In this document: positions 4,570 through 42,322 of the stretch, in pieces
Position numbering within the stretch: position 1 is the stretch's first letter
Layout of the letters: each line of letters opens with the position of its first letter
NCBI RefSeq assembly: GCF_000012865.1
Contig: NC_007503.1
Location: 930,001 to 994,000, forward strand
Length of the DNA stretch: 64,000 nucleotides
Reading direction: 5' to 3'
DNA from: Carboxydothermus hydrogenoformans Z-2901
Lineage (GTDB): Bacteria > Bacillota > Z-2901 > Carboxydothermales > Carboxydothermaceae
The notes under the pieces: generated by a model
Database searches by the model: none
The model's input: the letters and a program-made list of their open reading frames with translations, nothing else
What the model was told of the DNA's origin: nothing
Made by a program: the position numbers and the translations under genes

Positions 4570-5511
4570 TTGGCAAAATTCCTGGTTACCGGTGGAGCAG
4601 GTTTTATTGGCTCGCACATAGTGGAAAGGTTGGTACGAGACGGAGCTGAGGTCGTTGTCCTGGATGATTTATCAAGCGGTAAAGAGGAAAATCTCTCGGA
4701 AGTTTTAGATAAAATTACCTTTATTAAAGGAGATGTCCGGGATTTAGATTTGATAAAAGGAATTACTAAAGATGTGGATTATATTTTGCACGAAGCGGCG
4801 ATGGCGTCGGTGCCGGCTTCTATCGATGACCCTTTAAAATGCCATGAAGTAAACGTTACCGGGACGATTAATGTGCTTTTATCTGCTAAAGAAAACGGAG
4901 TAAAAAGAGTGGTTTACGCGGCATCTTCGGCAGTATACGGGAATAATGAAACTTTACCCAAGAAAGAAGATATGTACCCGGAGCCGCTTTCTCCCTATGC
5001 GGTTTCGAAGTATGCCGGAGAGTTATATCTTCAAGTTTTTGCCCGGATTTACGGTATTGAAGCGGTGGGACTTCGGTACTTTAATGTTTTTGGGCCAAAG
5101 CAGGATCCCAATTCCCAGTACGCAGCGGTGATACCTAAGTTTATCGATGCATTGTTAAAAGGTATGCCGCCGACAATTTACGGGGATGGAATGCAGACCA
5201 GGGATTTTATTTTTATCGATGATGTGGTGGAGGCAAATATGCTGGCTTTAACGGCCCGGGGGGCTTCAGGGAAGGTATTTAATATTGCCTGCGGAGAGCG
5301 GATTAGTTTAAATAGGCTTTACAAAGTGATAAAAGAGATTATCGGGGTGGATATTGAGCCGGTATATGCTGAGGCAAGGGTTGGAGATGTCCGGGACTCC
5401 CTGGCGGATATATCTTTGGCCCGGAATATTTTGGGGTTTGAGCCAAAGGTGAGTTTGGAGGAGGGCCTTAAAAAGACGGTTGAGTGGCATAAACGGAATT
5501 TGGAGGTTTGA
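4570..5511 (+). CDS. NAD-dependent UDP-sugar epimerase (GalE-like)
   Basis: An extended short-chain dehydrogenase of 313 residues, of the UDP-glucose/UDP-N-acetylglucosamine 4-epimerase type, supplying precursors for polysaccharide synthesis. The Rossmann motif TGGAGFIGSH is at residues 7-16. The catalytic serine region AASSAVYG and the YAVSK tyrosine-lysine pair follow, then RYFNVFGPKQDPNSQY and TRDFIFIDDVVEAN typical of the family. The start is TTG with an AAAGGGGA site upstream. The stop codon is followed within 30 bases by the next glycosyltransferase, so they form one operon. Exact sugar specificity cannot be fixed from sequence. Confidence 0.88.
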   Translation: MAKFLVTGGAGFIGSHIVERLVRDGAEVVVLDDLSSGKEENLSEVLDKITFIKGDVRDLDLIKGITKDVDYILHEAAMASVPASIDDPLKCHEVNVTGTINVLLSAKENGVKRVVYAASSAVYGNNETLPKKEDMYPEPLSPYAVSKYAGELYLQVFARIYGIEAVGLRYFNVFGPKQDPNSQYAAVIPKFIDALLKGMPPTIYGDGMQTRDFIFIDDVVEANMLALTARGASGKVFNIACGERISLNRLYKVIKEIIGVDIEPVYAEARVGDVRDSLADISLARNILGFEPKVSLEEGLKKTVEWHKRNLEV

Positions 5512-5540
5512 AAGTAGAGGGTGGATGCTGGAGAATTAAT

Positions 5541-6698
5541 ATGAAGAAGAAAATAAAACTTTTACACCTCATTACCTTAAGTGAGGCGGGAGGAGCCCAG
5601 AAGGTTCTCTATCATATTGTTAGTGGCCTAAATCCGGAAGAATACGATATTACCGTGATGGCTGCTCCCGGAGGAGAGTTATTTTCCTGGTTAAAAGATT
5701 ATCCGTATATAAAACTTTGGCCGCTGCCGGAGATGGAGCGGGAAATAGTTTTAACGAAAGATTTTAAGCTTTTATTAAAATTAATAGAAATTTTTAAAAA
5801 GGAAAAGTTTGATATCGTTCACTGCCACAGCACCAAAGCAGGGATACTGGGGAGAATCGCAGCTTTTTTTGGCCGGGTGCCGGTTAGGATTTTTACCGTG
5901 CACGGTTGGGTTTTTGACTTAAATCAACCACTTCTTAAATTTCTTTTTTATGTCTGGGCGGAGCGATTGGCGGGCTTGTTTGGCAGCATGATGGTGACGG
6001 TATCCCGGGAAGATTACCGGAAAGGGCTTGAATACAAAATTACCCGGAAAGAGAAGTTAACCTATATTCCCAATGGCTTGCCGGAAATTATAACAAAAAA
6101 GGGAAAGCTTCGAAAGGCACTTGGAATTAGTGATGAAATAAAAATAGTAGGAACTGTACTTCGTCTTGCACCTCCCAAGGACTTAGAGCTTCTCCTTAAA
6201 ACAGCGGAATTGGTAATAAAAAACTGGGACAGGGTTGTTTTTGTCGTAGTAGGAGATGGACCGCAAAAAGAGTGGCTTCGGGCGGAAATATTAAAAAGGG
6301 GGCTTTCGGAAAAAATCCATCTTTTGGGACACCGGGAAGATGTTTACGATTTGTTGGGGGATTTTGATGTTTTTACGCTTTTTTCCCGGCACGAAGGCTT
6401 ACCCGTTTCGATTCTCGAAGCTATGGCGGCGGGATTGCCGGTGGTTGCCAGTAAAGTGGGAGGCATACCGGAGCTTGTTTATGAGGGAGAAAATGGGTTT
6501 TTAGTGGATGAGGGAGATGGTAAAAAGGCTTTCCACGCCATAATTTCCCTTTTACAGGATGCGGAGCTCAGGTTTAAAATGGGAAAGAGGAGTTTTTTTC
6601 TTTATAGCGAAAATTATACCGTTGAAAAAATGGTCAGTTCCTATGACTGCCTGTACAAGAAACTTTTAAAAGATACGGAGGCAGTTTTTGATGGATAA
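5541..6698 (+). CDS. GT4-family glycosyltransferase
   Basis: A 385-residue GT4 glycosyltransferase. It begins KLLHLITLSEAGGAQKVLYH, the usual glycine-rich N-terminal loop, and carries VVGDGPQKEWL, LGHREDVYDLLGDFDVF and SRHEGLPVSILEAMAAGLPV, which is the E-x7-E donor site. The ATG at 5541 is chosen because the protein then starts at the conserved first strand. A frame extending to 5508 exists but adds unconserved residues. The gene overlaps the following sugar-transferase gene by 8 bases, indicating translational coupling. Confidence 0.85.
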   Translation: MKKKIKLLHLITLSEAGGAQKVLYHIVSGLNPEEYDITVMAAPGGELFSWLKDYPYIKLWPLPEMEREIVLTKDFKLLLKLIEIFKKEKFDIVHCHSTKAGILGRIAAFFGRVPVRIFTVHGWVFDLNQPLLKFLFYVWAERLAGLFGSMMVTVSREDYRKGLEYKITRKEKLTYIPNGLPEIITKKGKLRKALGISDEIKIVGTVLRLAPPKDLELLLKTAELVIKNWDRVVFVVVGDGPQKEWLRAEILKRGLSEKIHLLGHREDVYDLLGDFDVFTLFSRHEGLPVSILEAMAAGLPVVASKVGGIPELVYEGENGFLVDEGDGKKAFHAIISLLQDAELRFKMGKRSFFLYSENYTVEKMVSSYDCLYKKLLKDTEAVFDG

Positions 6699-8019
6699 AA
6701 ATACAAAACTAAAACTTTTAACCATTGCTTCCGTTTTAATTGACGCCGTTTTCTTAAACCTCGGCTTTGTAGCGGCTTTTTTGCTGCGCTTTGGTTTTAA
6801 GCTTCCTGAAGAAAACTTTATAGCTTATCTTACCGTTTACCCGTGGGTAACTTTAGCGGGGCTTTTACTTTTTAATGTGTATGGTTTATACCAGAGTTAT
6901 AAACGAAGCCGGGCAGAAGTTATCGCCTCTACCGTTTGGGCTATTGTGCTTTTGCTGCCGGTAGCCATGGGCATGGCGTTCTTCTTCCGGGGTTTTGCCT
7001 TTCCGCGGACGGTTTTCGTGGTTGCCCTTATCCTGCAGCTTATAATTTTTATTCCCTGGCGGCTCTGGCTCTGGCGGCTGGAGAAAAAAGTTTTTGGAGC
7101 AAGGCGGCTTTTATTAATTGGCGGTCATAAAGAAATCCACATTACCCGGGATAAGATCAAAGATAACAAGATTGACCTCTTTGAGGTTGCGGGAAAGCTG
7201 GCAGCTCCGGGAACAATTGAGGAAGTTAAGGAAGCCATCAATAAGTACCGGCCGGAAGTGGTACTTATCGGTAATAACCTTCCGGACAAGCTTAAAAAAG
7301 AAATATTACTTTTAACTTTGTCGGAAAATATTCCGGTGTACGTTATCCCAGATTATTATGATATCGTCCTTTCCCAGGCCAAGCTTGAGTCGATAGGCGA
7401 CTTACCGGTCTTTTATTTGGAAGGGCTTTCCTTGCCTGCCGGGATGCAGATGGTCAAAAGGGCGATGGATATCTTGCTGGCTTTAATTGCCCTAATTTTG
7501 GCAAGCCCGATAATGCTTGTAACTGCCCTTTTAATTAAGCTTGATTCCGAAGGACCGGTATTTTACTTACAGGAAAGGGTTACGGAAAACGGGCGAAAAT
7601 TTTACTGTTATAAATTCCGCACCATGGTGAAAGATGCGGAGAAACTCACGGGACCTACTTTAGCTACCGAAAACGATCCCCGGATTACCCGGGTAGGAAG
7701 GTTTTTACGGGCAACCAGGATTGATGAATTGCCCCAGTTAATAAATGTTTTAAAGGGAGACATGAGCTTAGTTGGACCAAGGCCCGAACGTCCTTTCTTT
7801 GTCGAAAAATTTACCGATGAGGTGCCGGAGTACGCCTTACGGCTAAAACTAAAATCCGGCCTAACCGGTCTTGCCCAGGTTGAAGGGAAATACAGTACCT
7901 CTTTTGAAGACAAGCTAAAATACGACTTGCTGTACGCCAAAGCTTATACCCCTCTAAAAGATTTAGAAATTATCCTGCACACGTTGAAAGTTATTTTAAT
8001 TAAGGATAAAGCATCTTGA
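6691..8019 (+). CDS. Polyprenyl-phosphate sugar-1-phosphate transferase (exopolysaccharide initiating enzyme)
   Basis: A 442-residue membrane protein that should start repeat-unit synthesis by transferring a sugar phosphate to undecaprenyl phosphate. About five hydrophobic segments occupy residues 10-130, followed by a soluble CoA_binding_3-like domain (LLLIGGHKEI). One more hydrophobic segment (residues 257-280) leads into the catalytic bacterial sugar transferase domain with SEGPVFYLQERV, YKFRTMVKDAE, DELPQLINVLKGDMS and LVGPRPE. The ATG at 6691 sits ten bases after GGAG. A TTG one codon earlier is possible. It is the last gene before a clear terminator. Confidence 0.9.
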   Translation: MDKNTKLKLLTIASVLIDAVFLNLGFVAAFLLRFGFKLPEENFIAYLTVYPWVTLAGLLLFNVYGLYQSYKRSRAEVIASTVWAIVLLLPVAMGMAFFFRGFAFPRTVFVVALILQLIIFIPWRLWLWRLEKKVFGARRLLLIGGHKEIHITRDKIKDNKIDLFEVAGKLAAPGTIEEVKEAINKYRPEVVLIGNNLPDKLKKEILLLTLSENIPVYVIPDYYDIVLSQAKLESIGDLPVFYLEGLSLPAGMQMVKRAMDILLALIALILASPIMLVTALLIKLDSEGPVFYLQERVTENGRKFYCYKFRTMVKDAEKLTGPTLATENDPRITRVGRFLRATRIDELPQLINVLKGDMSLVGPRPERPFFVEKFTDEVPEYALRLKLKSGLTGLAQVEGKYSTSFEDKLKYDLLYAKAYTPLKDLEIILHTLKVILIKDKAS

Positions 8020-10447: not shown

Positions 10448-11710
10448 TCAATCATGTACCGGATGGATTACCAGTCCCGATAAGGGTTTGGGATAAAAGT
10501 AGGTGGATTTTTGCGGCATTTTATTGCCTGACAAGGCTACTTTGGCAACATCTTCGGCGGTGGGGGCCGGGACTAAAAAGGAGTAGGGGGCCTTACCTTT
10601 TACAACTTCCGTGAGGCAGTCTTGGGCGTTTCGGGTGTATTTCAAATATTCACCGGAAAGGGTTTCTTTTTCTCCGATGCCTGCGGGTTTTAAGATGAGT
10701 TCATGAAGAACCGTAACCGGAAGACGAGCAATAACTTCCGGAAGACCCGGCAGAACCCTGGCCGGGTCGTTTTCTTTTAAATAAAGAAGATAAGCTTTAT
10801 CTTTTAAGCACATACCAAAAACGTACCGTTCCTTTAGTGTTGCAAAACGGTTTAAAATTTCTTTTAATGGTACTTCGACGAAAGTAAAATAGGCCAGGAT
10901 TTTTTCTAATATTTCGGCCGGAGAACTTTGAGCTTTTAGGACTATCCGGTGGGTTGGCAGGACCAGCAATCCTGGATCGGTAAAGGGGATTAACTGCATT
11001 AAAACCCGGTAAGCATTAACACCTTTTTTCTCCATTTCCCGGGCATAGGTAAGGGCTGTGTCGTAACGATGATGGCCATCGGCAATAAAAAGCTTTCGGT
11101 CTTTAAAGTAGTTTTGGGCTTTTAAAAGGGCTTCCGGGTCAACGACTTTATAAAATTTATTTAATCTTCCGCTTTCATCGGTAAATTCAAACATTAAACT
11201 TGCCTTTTCCCTTAAAATATTAAAGGCCAAATTTTGGCTGTCATCATATAAAGCCATGATGGGGCTGGTGTTAACCCGGGTTTCCCGCAGAAGATTTAAG
11301 CGGTCTTCTTTGGCTTTGGGCAGGGTATTTTCGTGGGGTAAAATTACCCCTTTTTCGTAAGGTTCTACCTGGACGGAAGCAAAAATGCTTTTTCTTATAT
11401 AAGATTGTCCTTCCCAGGAAAAGATTTCTTCTAAAAGATATAGAGCTGGAGTTTCTTCCTGAACCAGAATACCCTGGGAAAGCCAATTGTTTAAATAGCT
11501 TTTGGCCCGGATATAACGGTTATTTTCGGTGGTATCATCGGCAAAGGTTTTCCCCAGTTCCAGGCGAATAAAGTTGTATTCGTGTTCGTTATAATATTTT
11601 TCCTGTTCCTCCGGGGAAATGATGTCGTATGGAGGAGTTACCAGGTAAGGTAATTGGGAAAAAAGCTCGGGATTATAGTAAATCCCCCGAAAAGCAAAAA
11701 TACCGGCCAT
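10448..11710 (-). CDS. DUF1015 family protein
   Basis: A 420-residue conserved protein of the DUF1015 family, common in anaerobic Firmicutes, whose biochemical role is not established. Family marks are the N-terminal PYDIISPEEQEKYYNEHEYNFIRLELG segment, FIADGHHRYDTALTYA near the middle, and VLPTHRIV. The histidine-rich GHHRYDTA suggests a ParB-like or nuclease-like active site, but that is inference. The ATG follows GGAGGGA with good spacing. It is the last gene of a leftward group with the MazG-like and pyruvate-kinase-C-like genes, about 50 bases downstream of MazG. Confidence 0.85.
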   Translation of the reverse strand: MAGIFAFRGIYYNPELFSQLPYLVTPPYDIISPEEQEKYYNEHEYNFIRLELGKTFADDTTENNRYIRAKSYLNNWLSQGILVQEETPALYLLEEIFSWEGQSYIRKSIFASVQVEPYEKGVILPHENTLPKAKEDRLNLLRETRVNTSPIMALYDDSQNLAFNILREKASLMFEFTDESGRLNKFYKVVDPEALLKAQNYFKDRKLFIADGHHRYDTALTYAREMEKKGVNAYRVLMQLIPFTDPGLLVLPTHRIVLKAQSSPAEILEKILAYFTFVEVPLKEILNRFATLKERYVFGMCLKDKAYLLYLKENDPARVLPGLPEVIARLPVTVLHELILKPAGIGEKETLSGEYLKYTRNAQDCLTEVVKGKAPYSFLVPAPTAEDVAKVALSGNKMPQKSTYFYPKPLSGLVIHPVHD

Positions 11711-37263: not shown

Positions 37264-37641
37264 TTGGAGAAGCTTGTTAATATTTTAAAAGCTTTAGCTG
37301 ACGCTCATCGACTTAGGCTTTTTTTGGAGTTAACCAAACGAGAAATGGGGGTGTGTGAGGCAATTTCTCTTTTGGGTTTATCCCAACCAGCGGTTTCGCA
37401 CCATTTAAAAGTTTTAAAGCAAGCCGGGCTTATTAAAAACGAAAAACAGGGGAAAATTATTTTTTATTATGCTACTCCTGAGGCGGTGCAACTTTTGGAA
37501 AAGGAACTGGGAGGATTTTTGGGGAAGATTCGAAAATTACTGGAAACTCCGGTAAAACCTTCACCCCTTCGGGAACAACCGGATTTATGCGAATTTTTAG
37601 GATTTAAAAAAGAAGTCTGTGAGGAAGGAGAGGAGTTATGA
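37264..37641 (+). CDS. arsR: ArsR-family repressor
   Basis: A 125-residue winged-helix metalloregulator that should repress the acr3 operon until arsenite or a related ion binds. The DNA-binding helix is [20 protein letters not shown], after [25 protein letters not shown]. Cysteines are at KREMGVCE (about residue 26) and near the C-terminus ([20 protein letters not shown]). The classical CVC pair is absent, so the metal site would differ from E. coli ArsR. The start is TTG after GGAGGGAG. It overlaps the Acr3 gene by four bases. Confidence 0.9.
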
Positions 37642-38714
37642 GCCAAACTTCTGCTAAATTATCGTTTGTAGACCGGTATTTAACCGTCTGGATTTTACTG
37701 GCAATGGTTTTGGGTGTTGCCATTGGTTATTTCTTTCCCGGGATTGCTGGGCTTTTAGACCGCTTGAGCATTGATACCACTTCCATACCCATTGCTATTG
37801 GCCTTATCTGGATGATGTATCCGCCGCTGGCCAAAGTGCGGTATGAAGAAGTTAATAAAATTTTCCGGGGTGGCAGCAAAATTTTCCTATTTTCCATCCT
37901 GCAAAACTGGATTATCGGGCCGGTTTTAATGTTTATTTTGGCCTATATTTTCTTAAGAAACTATCCCGAGTATTTCATGGGATTAGTTTTAATCGGCCTT
38001 GCCCGGTGTATCGCCATGGTTATTCTCTGGAATGCTCTGGCCAAAGGAGACGCTGAGTATGCAGCAGCACTTGTTGCGCTAAATTCCCTCTTTCAGGTAT
38101 TTTTCTACTCAACTTATGCTTATTTCTTTATCAAAGTGGTTCCGGGCTGGCTTGGTTATGATACCAAGGGGGTTGTCCTTGACATTTCCATGGCGGAAAT
38201 CGCTAAGAGTGTTTTTATCTACCTTGGTATTCCTTTTTTAGCCGGAGTAATTACCCGGTTTTCTCTTTTGAAATCCAAAGGGCGGGAATGGTATGAAACA
38301 AAGTTTATCCCCAAATTAAGTCCTACCGCTTTATATGCGTTACTTTTTACCATTGTCGTGATGTTTTCTTTAAAGGGTCAGTACATTGTGAAACTTCCGT
38401 TGGATGTGGTTAGGGTAGCTATTCCTTTAATTGCTTACTTTGTATTAATGTTCTTTATTTCCTTTTACATTTCGGCCAAGGCTGGTTTTGGTTATGCCCG
38501 GACCGCTACATTATCGTTCACTGCTGCCAGTAACAATTTTGAGCTGGCGATAGCGGTGGCTGTGGCTACCTTTGGGTTAAATTCCGGGCAGGCGTTTGCG
38601 GCGGTTATCGGTCCCCTCATTGAAGTGCCGGTTATGCTCTGGCTGGTTAACATGGCCTTAAAATTAAAAGATAAATATTTTGGCGAAGGTGAACAGTATT
38701 ATGAGTGGTTTTAA
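37638..38714 (+). CDS. acr3: Acr3-type arsenite efflux transporter
   Basis: A 358-residue membrane protein with about ten hydrophobic segments, of the BASS/Acr3 family that exports arsenite using the membrane potential. Typical strings are [55 protein letters not shown] (carrying the conserved cysteine of Acr3) and [20 protein letters not shown]. It is translationally coupled to arsR. No arsC reductase lies nearby, so the substrate would be arsenite already present in reducing conditions. Confidence 0.93.
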
Positions 38715-38799: not shown

Positions 38800-39417
38800 A
38801 TGATTCTTTTATTGATGGTTATTGAATTTACCTGTGGTTCTTTGATGTTTTCCTACTGGTTAGGAGTTATGGTTGGCAAAAAATTAGAAGATGTTAGGGA
38901 TGGAAATCCGGGAGCTTTTAATCTTTGGTATGCCGCTGGATTTAAAGTGGGTATTTTGGGTGCTATTTTGGATTTTTTGAAGGGATATTTTCCCCTTGTT
39001 TATTTTATTAAAAAAGAATATCTTATAAATGGAATAGCTCTGATTTTTGTGGCAATAGCACCTGTTTTAGGCCATGCTTTTTCTCCCTTTTTAAGATTTA
39101 AAGGAGGGAAAGCTATGGCCGTTACTTTTGGTGTATGGAGCGCAGTTACGGACTTTAAGGCTTCATTTTTTTACGCAGTTGTACTGGGGATTTTAAAAGC
39201 TCTTGAAAGAATTTATTTTTGGGGTAGCCCATCTTTACCTGAAAGGGACGCAATGCTTGATATCGTTGGTTTTACCATTTTAATGTTTTTTTTAATTGGA
39301 AATGGTTTTGAAAAATTGCTTTTACTCTGGGTATTTAATTTTCTTGTTTTACTTTATAAAAGACGAAGGGATTTCAAGATTTTGCTGAAAAAAAGGGGAA
39401 ATTTCCTGTTTAAATAA
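38800..39417 (+). CDS. PlsY-like acyl-phosphate glycerol-3-phosphate acyltransferase
   Basis: A 205-residue protein with five or six membrane segments resembling PlsY, which acylates glycerol-3-phosphate from acyl phosphate in phospholipid synthesis. The three PlsY motifs are recognisable: SYWLGVMVGKKL at the start, VRDGNPGAFNLWY, and GHAFSPFLRFKGGKAMAVTFG. An inserted stretch near residues 137-150 (FWGSPSLPERD) makes it slightly unusual. Its position between Acr3 and the selenoprotein is unexpected; it may be a divergent paralogue with a different role. The ATG follows AAGGAAGG. No terminator separates it from acr3. Confidence 0.75.
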   Translation: MILLLMVIEFTCGSLMFSYWLGVMVGKKLEDVRDGNPGAFNLWYAAGFKVGILGAILDFLKGYFPLVYFIKKEYLINGIALIFVAIAPVLGHAFSPFLRFKGGKAMAVTFGVWSAVTDFKASFFYAVVLGILKALERIYFWGSPSLPERDAMLDIVGFTILMFFLIGNGFEKLLLLWVFNFLVLLYKRRRDFKILLKKRGNFLFK

Positions 39418-39434: not shown

Positions 39435-39463
39435 GTCACAGAAAAAATAAAATATGGTATAAT
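39435..39463 (+). promoter_or_regulatory. Probable promoter of the thioredoxin-CcdA selenoprotein
   Basis: TATAAT at 39458-39463 is a perfect -10, with GTCACA 17 bases upstream as a four-of-six -35 match. It lies 40 bases before the selenoprotein start. Confidence 0.55.
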
Positions 39464-39503
39464 TAAAAAAAGTAAATTAATTAAATCAATAGGCGGGGTG
39501 GAG

Positions 39504-40691
39504 ATGGAAAAGAAAAGTACTATTGCTTTAATTGTGGTATTTGTCATTGCCCTTTTAGCCTTTGGAGTGTATTACGCTACTAACCGGGAATTAGGCTCGC
39601 CGGCTAATAGCGGCAATGTAATTGATCAGTACAATGAGGCTTTAAAAAACCATGAACCTTTTTTATTAGAGTTTTCCGGGGCAACCTGACCTACCTGTGC
39701 GCAAATGGCACCGGTGGTGCAGGAATTAAAGAAAGAATACGAAGGACGGATGCGGGTAATTGTAGCGGAAGTTAGTCGTCAGGATAGCCAACAGTTAGCA
39801 GCAAAATTTGGTATCCAGTACGTCCCAACGTTTATTGTAGTTGATCAAAACGGGAATATTGTCCCCTGGACTGATGCCCAGGGCAATCAAATGCCGATGT
39901 TTGTTGGCGGGCTTACTAAGGAAGAGTTAAAAGCCCAGATGGATAAAGTGGCTTTAAAGGAAAAAAAAACCCCTGAATTAAATGATTCGGGGAAGAAAAA
40001 ATCTTTTGCCCAAACGCTTGCGGATAAGCTTCCAGGGTTACTGGGGGATTCAAAGCTTTTAGCGCTTTTTGTTGTTTTTCTTGGGGGGATTGCTACCAGT
40101 TTTACCCCTTGTATCTTAGGTATGATTCCGCTTATTATCGGTTACACCGGTGGTTATGCCGGGCGGTCACCGGCCAAAGGATTTATTTACTCGCTATTTT
40201 TTGTCCTGGGTCTTGCTACGACTCTTACCCTTTTGGGAGTTGGAATTGGGGTTTTAGGAACTTTTATCAAAAGCCGGTTATTTGCTTTTAATTTTATTCT
40301 GGGGATAGTGGCCATTTTAATGGGATTTGCGGTGATGGGCTTTTATACGATAAATCTTCCTGGCTTAAAAAGGATGCCGGTTAAGGGCACCGGACTTTTT
40401 TCTTCGTATTTAATGGGCTTGTTCTTTGGCTTATCCGCCAGCCCCTGTGCCACGCCGGTTTTAATTGTTATTGTAACTTATGCGCTGGCTAAAGCATCGC
40501 CTTTATTTGGCGGAGCGCTCCTGTTTTCCTACAGTTTTGGCCATGGCCTACCCTTAATCTTAGCCGGTACCTTTTCTGCCTTTTTGGGTAAGATTACTTC
40601 CTTAGGACGGTACGGGGAAATAATTAATTATATTTTTGGCGGGATACTTGTGTTGTATGGGTTGTACCTTTTGTTTGGAAGATTATTATAG
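39504..40691 (+). CDS. Selenocysteine-containing thioredoxin-CcdA fusion, TGA read as Sec62
   Basis: One 395-residue protein is split by an in-frame TGA at 39687-39689. The frame before and after is identical with no shift. Residues 5-24 form an N-terminal membrane anchor. A thioredoxin domain follows (about 37-155) in which the TGA replaces the first active-site cysteine, giving FSGAT-U-PTCAQMAPVVQEL, with cis-proline segment IQYVPTFIVVD. A CcdA/DsbD-type membrane domain with six hydrophobic segments completes it, holding the redox cysteines in SFTPCILGM and SASPCATPV. The expected role is moving electrons from cytoplasmic thioredoxin to an outward-facing selenothiol. ATG 39504 follows AGGCGGGG. 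Sec readthrough needs selA/B/C/D, not in this window. Confidence 0.88.
39687..39723 (+). promoter_or_regulatory. Candidate bacterial SECIS element
   Basis: Directly after the TGA, CCTGTGC at 39694-39700 can pair with GTGCAGG at 39717-39723 (two G-U pairs). Alternatively GCACC at 39708-39712 pairs with GGTGC at 39716-39720, leaving a GGT apical loop about 25 bases after the TGA. The position and a GU-containing loop fit SelB recognition. Which fold forms was not computed. Confidence 0.6.
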
Positions 40692-40704
40692 CAAAATAAG
40701 TTCA

Positions 40705-40740
40705 AAAAGGCCGGAATGGAAATCCGGCCTTTTATGTTTT
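40705..40740. terminator. Bidirectional terminator between convergent redox genes
   Basis: AAAAGGCCGGA at 40705-40715 pairs perfectly with TCCGGCCTTTT at 40723-40733. A and T tracts on both sides suit termination of both the selenoprotein and the leftward redox gene. Confidence 0.9.
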
Positions 40741-40754
40741 AGGGGTAGGAAAAC

Positions 40755-41000
40755 TTATTGGTTGGCGTGCTCTAAAATAATTTTTTCCAGTTCTGCTTTG
40801 GAGGGGACCCTTCCGGATAAAACGACTTTTTCGTTAATGACCAGGCCCGGCGTGGACATTACTCCGTATTTCATGATTTCGGGAATGTCCTGGACTTTTT
40901 GAACATTGGCATCAATGTTTAATTCGGCTAAAGCATTAAAAACCATTCTTTCTAACTTTTCGCAGTTAGCACAGCCCATACCTAAAACTTTAATATCCAT
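40755..41000 (-). CDS. Small redox-active disulfide protein (thioredoxin-like, MTH895/TM0996 family)
   Basis: An 81-residue single-domain thioredoxin-fold protein with the active site GMGCANCEKLE (Cys10 and Cys13) and the cis-proline loop VMSTPGLVINEKVVLSG. It has no signal or membrane segment, so it is cytoplasmic. The same protein family is commonly encoded beside the permease and ArsR that flank it here, and it probably reduces or hands a metal or metalloid to the permease. The ATG follows AGGAGGC. It is the last gene of the leftward arsR-permease operon. Confidence 0.85.
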   Translation of the reverse strand: MDIKVLGMGCANCEKLERMVFNALAELNIDANVQKVQDIPEIMKYGVMSTPGLVINEKVVLSGRVPSKAELEKIILEHANQ

Positions 41001-41028: not shown

Positions 41029-41982
41029 TTAAAAAATAGCATTAAATAAGTAGCCGGTTAATAAAATCCCAAAACCAACAATTCCTACAAAGGTTGCCAG
41101 GAGCTTAGGCTTTAAAACTTTGCGTAAAATAATCATTTCCGGAAGACTTAGTGCCGTTACCGACATCATAAAGGCTAAAACTGTACCTAAGGCAACTCCT
41201 TTTTCAAAAAGGACTTTTACAATAGGGATTACCCCGGCGGCGTTGGAATAAAGGGGGATACCAAGTACTACTGCAAAGGGTACTGCCCAAAGCTGACCAC
41301 GACCTGCGTATTTAACAAAAAAGTCGGTAGGTACATATCCGTGCATAAAGCCGCCAATGGCAATGGCAATCAAAACATACGGCCAGACTTTTTTAAGAAT
41401 GTCTTTGGTAGCAAATTTGGCAAACTCCACTCTTTGGGCAAAATTCATACCCTGAGTAGATGCAGCCTGCTCACCCATTTTAATCTGGTAAACGTAATCT
41501 TCCACCCAGTGTTCTAACTTAAGTTTTCCAATGATTATACCTGAAATTATGGCAATTACTAAGCCGGAAGCAACGTAAATTAATGCCACTTTAACTCCAA
41601 ACATTCCTAAAAGCATGACCAAAGCTACTTCATTGACCATTGGGGCTGAAACAAGATAGGAAAAGGTAACTCCTAAAGGTACACCTGCTTCGACAAAACC
41701 GATAAACAGGGGAACGGCGGAGCAGGAGCAAAAAGGCGTAACGGTACCAAACAAGGCAGCAAGAATATTACCCAAAAAACCAAACCTGCCGCTTAAGACT
41801 TTCCGTGTTTTTTCCGGGGTGATGTACGAGCGAAGGTAGGAAACGACGAAAATAATTACAGCAAGTAAAAGAAAAATCTTTATGGTATCGTAAATAAAAA
41901 AGTGTACTGCTTCGCCCAGCGCGCTTCCTTTTTCAAGACCAAAAAGCCGGTAGGTTACAAGATCAGCAAAGGAATTAAGCAT
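41029..41982 (-). CDS. Permease of the ArsP/DUF318 family
   Basis: A 317-residue membrane protein with about eight hydrophobic segments. The hallmark segment TPFCSCSAVPLFIGFVEAGV with its paired cysteines is followed by TFSYLVSAPMVNEVALVMLLG, as in the permeases linked to organoarsenical export and to small redox proteins. A second conserved region, LGIPLYSNAAGVIPIVKVL, lies in the C-terminal half. It overlaps the upstream arsR by 8 bases. Its substrate could be an organoarsenical or another thiol-reactive solute. Confidence 0.85.
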   Translation of the reverse strand: MLNSFADLVTYRLFGLEKGSALGEAVHFFIYDTIKIFLLLAVIIFVVSYLRSYITPEKTRKVLSGRFGFLGNILAALFGTVTPFCSCSAVPLFIGFVEAGVPLGVTFSYLVSAPMVNEVALVMLLGMFGVKVALIYVASGLVIAIISGIIIGKLKLEHWVEDYVYQIKMGEQAASTQGMNFAQRVEFAKFATKDILKKVWPYVLIAIAIGGFMHGYVPTDFFVKYAGRGQLWAVPFAVVLGIPLYSNAAGVIPIVKVLFEKGVALGTVLAFMMSVTALSLPEMIILRKVLKPKLLATFVGIVGFGILLTGYLFNAIF

Positions 41983-42304
41983 TAAAATCCTCTCCCTTTA
42001 AAAGGTTTTCGCTTTCTTTTTTGGTTTCTTCAATGACGATATCTTTTAATAAATCCACCAGTTCGACAAATTTGGGGTTGGTAAGACGGTAATGAACGTT
42101 TAATCCTACCCGGCGGGAGCTAACGATTCCCGCTCGCTTTAAAACCGCCAAGTGCTGGGAAATATTGGACTGCTCTAAGGAAAATTCTTCAATAAATTCG
42201 CAGACGCAGCGCTCGCGGTCTTTTAGGTAATAAATAACCTTTAATCGGGTAGGATGGGCCAGAGCTTTAAAAATTTCGGCAAGTTCCGCCAGCAAAAAGT
42301 CCAT
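41975..42304 (-). CDS. ArsR-family repressor of the permease operon
   Basis: A 109-residue winged-helix regulator with the ALAHPTRLKVIYYLKDRERCVCEFIEE segment, which contains the classical CVC metal-binding pair, and the recognition helix SLEQSNISQHLAVLKRAGI. It should release DNA upon binding arsenite, antimonite or a similar ion. The ATG at 42304 is chosen because AGGAGGT precedes it. The longer frame begins inside the operator. A perfect palindrome overlaps its promoter, which implies autoregulation. Confidence 0.9.
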   Translation of the reverse strand: MDFLLAELAEIFKALAHPTRLKVIYYLKDRERCVCEFIEEFSLEQSNISQHLAVLKRAGIVSSRRVGLNVHYRLTNPKFVELVDLLKDIVIEETKKESENLLKGEDFNA

Positions 42305-42322
42305 ATTTAACCTCCTATTCAC

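Follow-up and report, generated by a model that had tools for sequence, protein, structure and literature searches.

A predicted membrane selenoprotein of Carboxydothermus hydrogenoformans joins a selenocysteine thioredoxin to a CcdA domain

CcdA proteins pass electrons from cytoplasmic thioredoxin to a thiol partner on the outer side of the membrane. In Bacillus subtilis, CcdA serves StoA, and CcdA–thioredoxin pairs also reduce the haem-binding cysteines of apocytochromes. The StoA–CcdA and ResA/CcsX–CcdA pairs consist of separately encoded, cysteine-based proteins; DsbD combines its parts in the order alpha–TM–gamma, with the thioredoxin domain at the C terminus, whereas CcdA stands alone. 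Two published inventories bear on selenocysteine in such proteins. Nine selenoproteins, one of them called a thioredoxin, were listed for C. hydrogenoformans in a 2006 survey (PMC1794560), and a 2026 inventory (PMC13188914) lists both a UxxC thioredoxin and TsoB, a rhodanese/DsbD selenoprotein described as a rhodanese fusion with a UxxxxU motif, and never mentions CcdA. Here, we describe a C. hydrogenoformans gene in which an in-frame TGA, a thioredoxin domain and a CcdA domain share a single reading frame.

The gene lies on the forward strand of the window (the whole stretch of 64,000 nucleotides analyzed, positions 930001-994000 of a 2,401,520-base contig), with the following features:

39435-39463, +: promoter-like site GTCACA-17-TATAAT (consensus match), with TG before the second hexamer
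39504-40691, +: reading frame of the fusion gene, stop codon TAG at 40689-40691
39522-39578, +: N-terminal hydrophobic anchor, residues 7-25 (hydropathy; AF2 helix 4-29)
39624-39860, +: thioredoxin domain, residues 41-119 (Pfam; Foldseek matches to thioredoxins)
39687-39689, +: in-frame TGA, predicted selenocysteine 62 of a U62-P-T-C65 motif
39691-39717, +: hairpin CUACC...GGUGG (loop GCAAAUG), an alternative of greater stability at 11 nt from the UGA
39708-39720, +: predicted SECIS hairpin GCACC-GGU-GGUGC, 23 nt from the UGA to the apical loop (predicted fold)
40059-40673, +: CcdA/DsbD_TM domain, residues 186-390, with Cys203 (TPC) and Cys315 (SPC) (Pfam, hydropathy)
40705-40733, +: terminator-like hairpin of 11 pairs followed by a T-rich tail

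The TGA is the sole stop that interrupts the frame, and with UGA read as selenocysteine the product has 395 residues and a computed mass of ~42.5 kDa, in agreement with the ~42 kDa anticipated in a preliminary description of the locus. That description had placed the end of the gene at 40723, which overshoots into the terminator; the frame ends at 40691. Its central observation, a continuous frame split by a TGA exactly at the residue that opens a thioredoxin active site, is upheld: residue 62 is the first position of the UPTC site, and when the TGA is read as cysteine Pfam finds both domains in one chain, Thioredoxin at residues 41-119 (1.4e-14) and DsbD_TM at residues 186-390 (2.3e-25). It also foresaw that gene callers would tend to report two truncated genes, and a mechanical ORF caller indeed returns 39498-39689 and 39705-40691; two truncated genes may be recorded at many loci of this type.

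Both domains are assigned well above threshold. The PF00085 match scores 54 bits (cut-off 23.5) and includes, besides the UPTC site, a cis-proline (YVPTF), while the PF02683 match scores 89.6 bits (cut-off 27.1) and contains two membrane cysteines in PC motifs. The fusion of CcdA with both of its redox cysteines to the thioredoxin domain, as first proposed, is further supported by the alignment of 16 fused proteins, in which the U/C residues 62, 65, 203 and 315 are invariant. Hydropathy analysis gives an N-terminal helix (residues 7-25) in addition to the CcdA helices. An AF2 model built from 16 sequences is weak overall (pLDDT 65.7, pTM 0.45) and unreliable for the relative placing of the two domains; its thioredoxin part is mostly at 66-87 and matches thioredoxins in Foldseek (TMt up to 0.85).

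The protein resembles several described systems in part. It shares the thioredoxin fold and selenocysteine at the first active-site position with the UxxC selenocysteine thioredoxins (Trx, PF00085), but is anchored, presumably extracytoplasmic, and carries a C-terminal CcdA domain. Like CcdA/DsbD proteins (PF02683; solved CcdA structure 5vkv), it has a DsbD_TM domain with two PC-motif membrane cysteines and a thioredoxin partner that would lie outside the membrane; here, however, the partner is N-terminal and contains selenocysteine. TsoB (NF045694, rhodanese/DsbD fusion-like) is likewise a selenoprotein with a DsbD-like membrane part but is rhodanese-based rather than thioredoxin-based, and the TsoB model aligns with the membrane part only (118.6 bits over residues 167-390, cut-off 805). 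The StoA–CcdA and ResA/CcsX–CcdA pairs also comprise an anchored, outward thioredoxin-like protein re-reduced by CcdA, and differ from the C. hydrogenoformans protein in being neither fused nor selenium-based. The fusion is the only DsbD_TM (CcdA-type) protein of the genome. It is also the only one of six PF00085 matches whose gene has an in-frame TGA, and it is consequently very probably the thioredoxin selenoprotein already counted in the 2006 survey (PMC1794560). A search of the accessible literature found no earlier description of the CcdA coupling, its spread or its SECIS. In the original genome annotation, the gene may already be named as a selenoprotein of the cytochrome c biogenesis family with a thioredoxin domain.

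Homologues were compared at the position of the TGA, where the preliminary description had proposed looking for cysteine. The TGA is retained in all three Carboxydothermus species; the C. islandicus protein is 93% identical and was the only match in a protein-pattern scan of genome contigs. The collection comprises 40 thioredoxin–CcdA loci with UxxC, 3 from Carboxydothermus and 37 from other families of the same phylum, which together span ten GTDB families. Another six loci have CxxC, encoded by TGT or TGC at the same position, so the in-frame UGA aligns with either cysteine or UGA throughout. Every collected locus has [U/C]xxC in the thioredoxin domain followed by CcdA, either fused or as the next ORF. 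A quick tree, with several long branches that leave its details unsure, requires at least three interchanges between selenocysteine and cysteine, and three changes between fused and split forms. A tblastn search of plasmids returned only distant CcdA/DsbD proteins, plus an Acetoanaerobium locus in which trx (CPAC) and ccdA are distinct genes lying side by side. Since three species and distant relatives all retain the TGA, neither chance nor sequencing error is a tenable source for it, and on this comparative evidence the internal TGA is almost certainly read as selenocysteine to give one protein.

Bacterial SECIS elements are hairpins ~16-37 nt from the UGA with a G in the apical loop. Across the 40 selenocysteine loci, synonymous choice is frozen from codon +7 to codon +12 downstream of the UGA (Glu GAG 37/37, Pro CCC 31/39, Val GTG 40/40 and Ala GCT 33/36), whereas the same amino acids elsewhere in the domain use mixed codons. 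Ranked by normalized codon entropy, these four codons take the lowest places among 26 conserved columns (chance 1 in 14950); with the alignment thinned to 27 rows, they rank 1, 2, 3 and 5 (chance 2 in 14950). Both figures are indicative rather than independent because the rows are related. The frozen block forms the hairpin GGAGCC-loop-GGCUCU, the pairs of which are formed in 95% of cells; displacing the 3′ arm by 1-3 columns lowers this to 21-52%. The stem varies so little that covariation is slight. The cysteine homologues lack this hairpin, and fold energies at the site range from −6 to −14 kcal/mol in selenocysteine loci versus 0 to −4 in cysteine loci. As noted from the first, a hairpin follows the TGA, and by sequence comparison we take the frozen codon block and its hairpin, which are found in selenocysteine loci and missing from cysteine loci, to be a bacterial SECIS.

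In Carboxydothermus, the corresponding hairpin, GCACC-GGU-GGUGC, has its apical loop (GGU) 23 nt from the UGA, within the range given above, and is identical in the three species. Its 5′ arm is positioned as in the relatives' hairpin and it pairs slightly earlier; the stem is limited to 5 pairs, the 3′ arm is displaced, and the alternative fold competes with it. The C. hydrogenoformans hairpin taken alone gives modest fold z-scores (−1.4 to −2.2), and an Rfam scan of the window gave no match at gathering score. The alternative hairpin, which begins 1 nt past the UGA, was dropped as the main SECIS candidate, and GCACC-GGU-GGUGC preferred, because it has no counterpart in most relatives.

The genome encodes the machinery such a gene would need, as a check for selA, selB, selC and selD called for in the preliminary description established: selA (643 bits) and selB (399 bits) are adjacent, tRNA-Sec scores 78 bits (gathering score 47; the weaker matches in that search are probably mostly other tRNAs), and selD is present and itself carries an in-frame TGA. 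This selD TGA (L018) lies in the motif SCAGUAAK; after it comes GAGUC-CCGA-GACUC, probably a SECIS and useful for comparison.

Taken together, the comparisons support the predicted frame, selenocysteine position, SECIS, domains and their conservation, and we consider it highly probable that the locus encodes a single membrane selenoprotein in which UGA is decoded as selenocysteine and an outward thioredoxin is kept reduced by the CcdA domain of the same protein. Topology, the direction of electron transfer and the target are what we infer beyond this. The N-terminal anchor (residues 7-25) and C-terminal CcdA make an outward-facing thioredoxin domain plausible, and the simplest mechanism would be an outer selenothioredoxin, held by its anchor, to which the attached CcdA supplies electrons. 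UGA 39687 would be decoded through the SECIS hairpin just downstream, and the N-terminal helix would hold the thioredoxin domain on the outward side of the membrane. The CcdA domain would accept electrons from cytoplasmic thioredoxin through Cys203/Cys315 and hand them to the U62/C65 pair, which would reduce disulfides or other oxidized targets outside. Oxidized thiols in envelope or spore proteins at large would be the most likely targets, rather than arsenic chemistry.

We give an even chance to the broader proposition that these loci represent a selenoprotein system, so far undescribed, that is widespread in anaerobic Bacillota and pairs an extracytoplasmic selenothioredoxin with CcdA, the two being fused in some lineages and selenocysteine and cysteine forms having been exchanged in evolution. 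If true, it would be a route that uses selenium to carry reducing power across the membrane to the outside of the cell. A conserved selenocysteine thioredoxin with its own CcdA would make selenium chemistry the final step of a reducing pathway that crosses the membrane of anaerobes, and may partly explain why they retain the selenocysteine machinery. The frozen codon block also provides a well-defined natural set of SECIS elements for studies of SelB.

A narrower form of this explanation, in which the outward thioredoxin acts as StoA does and keeps spore-envelope proteins reduced during sporulation, is possible but tentative. Beyond the B. subtilis precedent of StoA with CcdA, the genes that adjoin such loci elsewhere give a hint of envelope or spore proteins: three close cysteine loci adjoin a SigK-like sigma factor, and four or five split selenocysteine loci adjoin a GerMN-like lipoprotein and an amidase (all named by eye from sequence). 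However, these neighbors vary between lineages, and no sporulation gene adjoins the fusion gene in Carboxydothermus. The three cysteine-type loci (L061, L062 and L073) share a common syntenic block, in which the SigK-like gene is convergent.

In C. hydrogenoformans, the gene has the following neighbors:

37264-37641, +: ArsR-family regulator (profile match)
37638-38714, +: acr3, arsenite efflux (449 bits, cut-off 283), of which 36 nt (38428-38463) remain in C. islandicus
38800-39417, +: PlsY-like acyltransferase (71.5 bits, PlsY equivalog cut-off 137.2), between acr3 and the fusion gene
40755-41000, −: ArsE/MTH895-family small redox protein, convergent (109 bits, cut-off 62)
41029-41982, −: ArsP_1 permease (Pfam)
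41975-42322, −: second ArsR-family regulator (profile match)

The Acr3, ArsR, ArsP-like permease and small redox protein were correctly recognized in the preliminary description, which was silent on the PlsY-like gene. From them it suggested a role in metalloid handling, in which the selenothioredoxin–CcdA protein would give reducing power to the neighboring Acr3/ArsE/ArsP system. We regard such a role as improbable, and the suggestion was not borne out, although ars genes stand on either side of the gene both in the window and in Carboxydothermus sp. G002, and ArsE–ArsP lie within ~5 kb of thioredoxin–CcdA at three distant loci, one with selenocysteine (L076) and two with cysteine (L074 and L075). 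In C. islandicus, the order is hisE, the thioredoxin–CcdA gene and then directly pcrA; the gene keeps its TGA and hairpin with no ars neighbors, and no acr3 above cut-off is found in the genome (94% complete). What remains between hisE and the fusion gene is a 36-base perfect match (L058:8665-8700) to the piece of acr3 listed above, a remnant from which it follows that acr3 was once present there and was then deleted.

Outside Carboxydothermus, ars genes occur at one (L076) of 12 selenocysteine loci with wider flanks, some on short contigs, and none were found in the flanks of up to 1.5 kb available for the remaining selenocysteine loci; in most carrier genomes acr3 is located elsewhere. The fusion gene also looks like its own transcription unit, bounded by the promoter-like site, the TATAAT region of which is common to C. 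islandicus (such sites number 3 in the region, against 3.0 expected in shuffles), and by the strong terminator-like hairpin, also present in C. islandicus. Given the loss in C. islandicus, the few ars-linked selenocysteine loci, and the gene's own promoter-like site and terminator, the arsenic link is loose at best; linkage to ars genes is not conserved, and arsenic as the main function is rejected. At L076 (7195-9795), arsR-arsE-arsP come directly after the distant selenocysteine thioredoxin and ccdA pair, and a cysteine-desulfurase-like gene lies beyond them.

Still less probable is a part in System II cytochrome c maturation, in which the protein would reduce the haem-binding cysteines of apocytochromes as ResA/CcsX do with CcdA. 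The CcdA–thioredoxin precedent of B. subtilis and the presence of ResB in several other carriers speak for it, but ResB, on which System II depends, is missing from all three Carboxydothermus genomes, and among the f11-family carriers tested only one has it; the role was rejected. That the TGA is a true stop, separating two genes or marking a decaying or mis-sequenced one, is scarcely credible: the split made by the ORF caller is what such a stop would give, but the identical TGA recurs in three Carboxydothermus species and at 37 loci elsewhere, only the TGA copies show the synonymous constraint and the hairpin, and the downstream ORF would begin within the thioredoxin domain, without its CxxC.

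A point against the selenoprotein reading comes from the locus of Carboxydothermus sp. G002 (L057), where a one-base homopolymer difference in the linker (near 8.9-9.0 kb), either a real change or a draft error, puts thioredoxin and CcdA in different frames. The acr3 of this locus is truncated (10586-11146), and four ORFs (217, 108, 228 and 222 aa; 5406-7945), absent from the window, lie between arsE and the selenoprotein gene.
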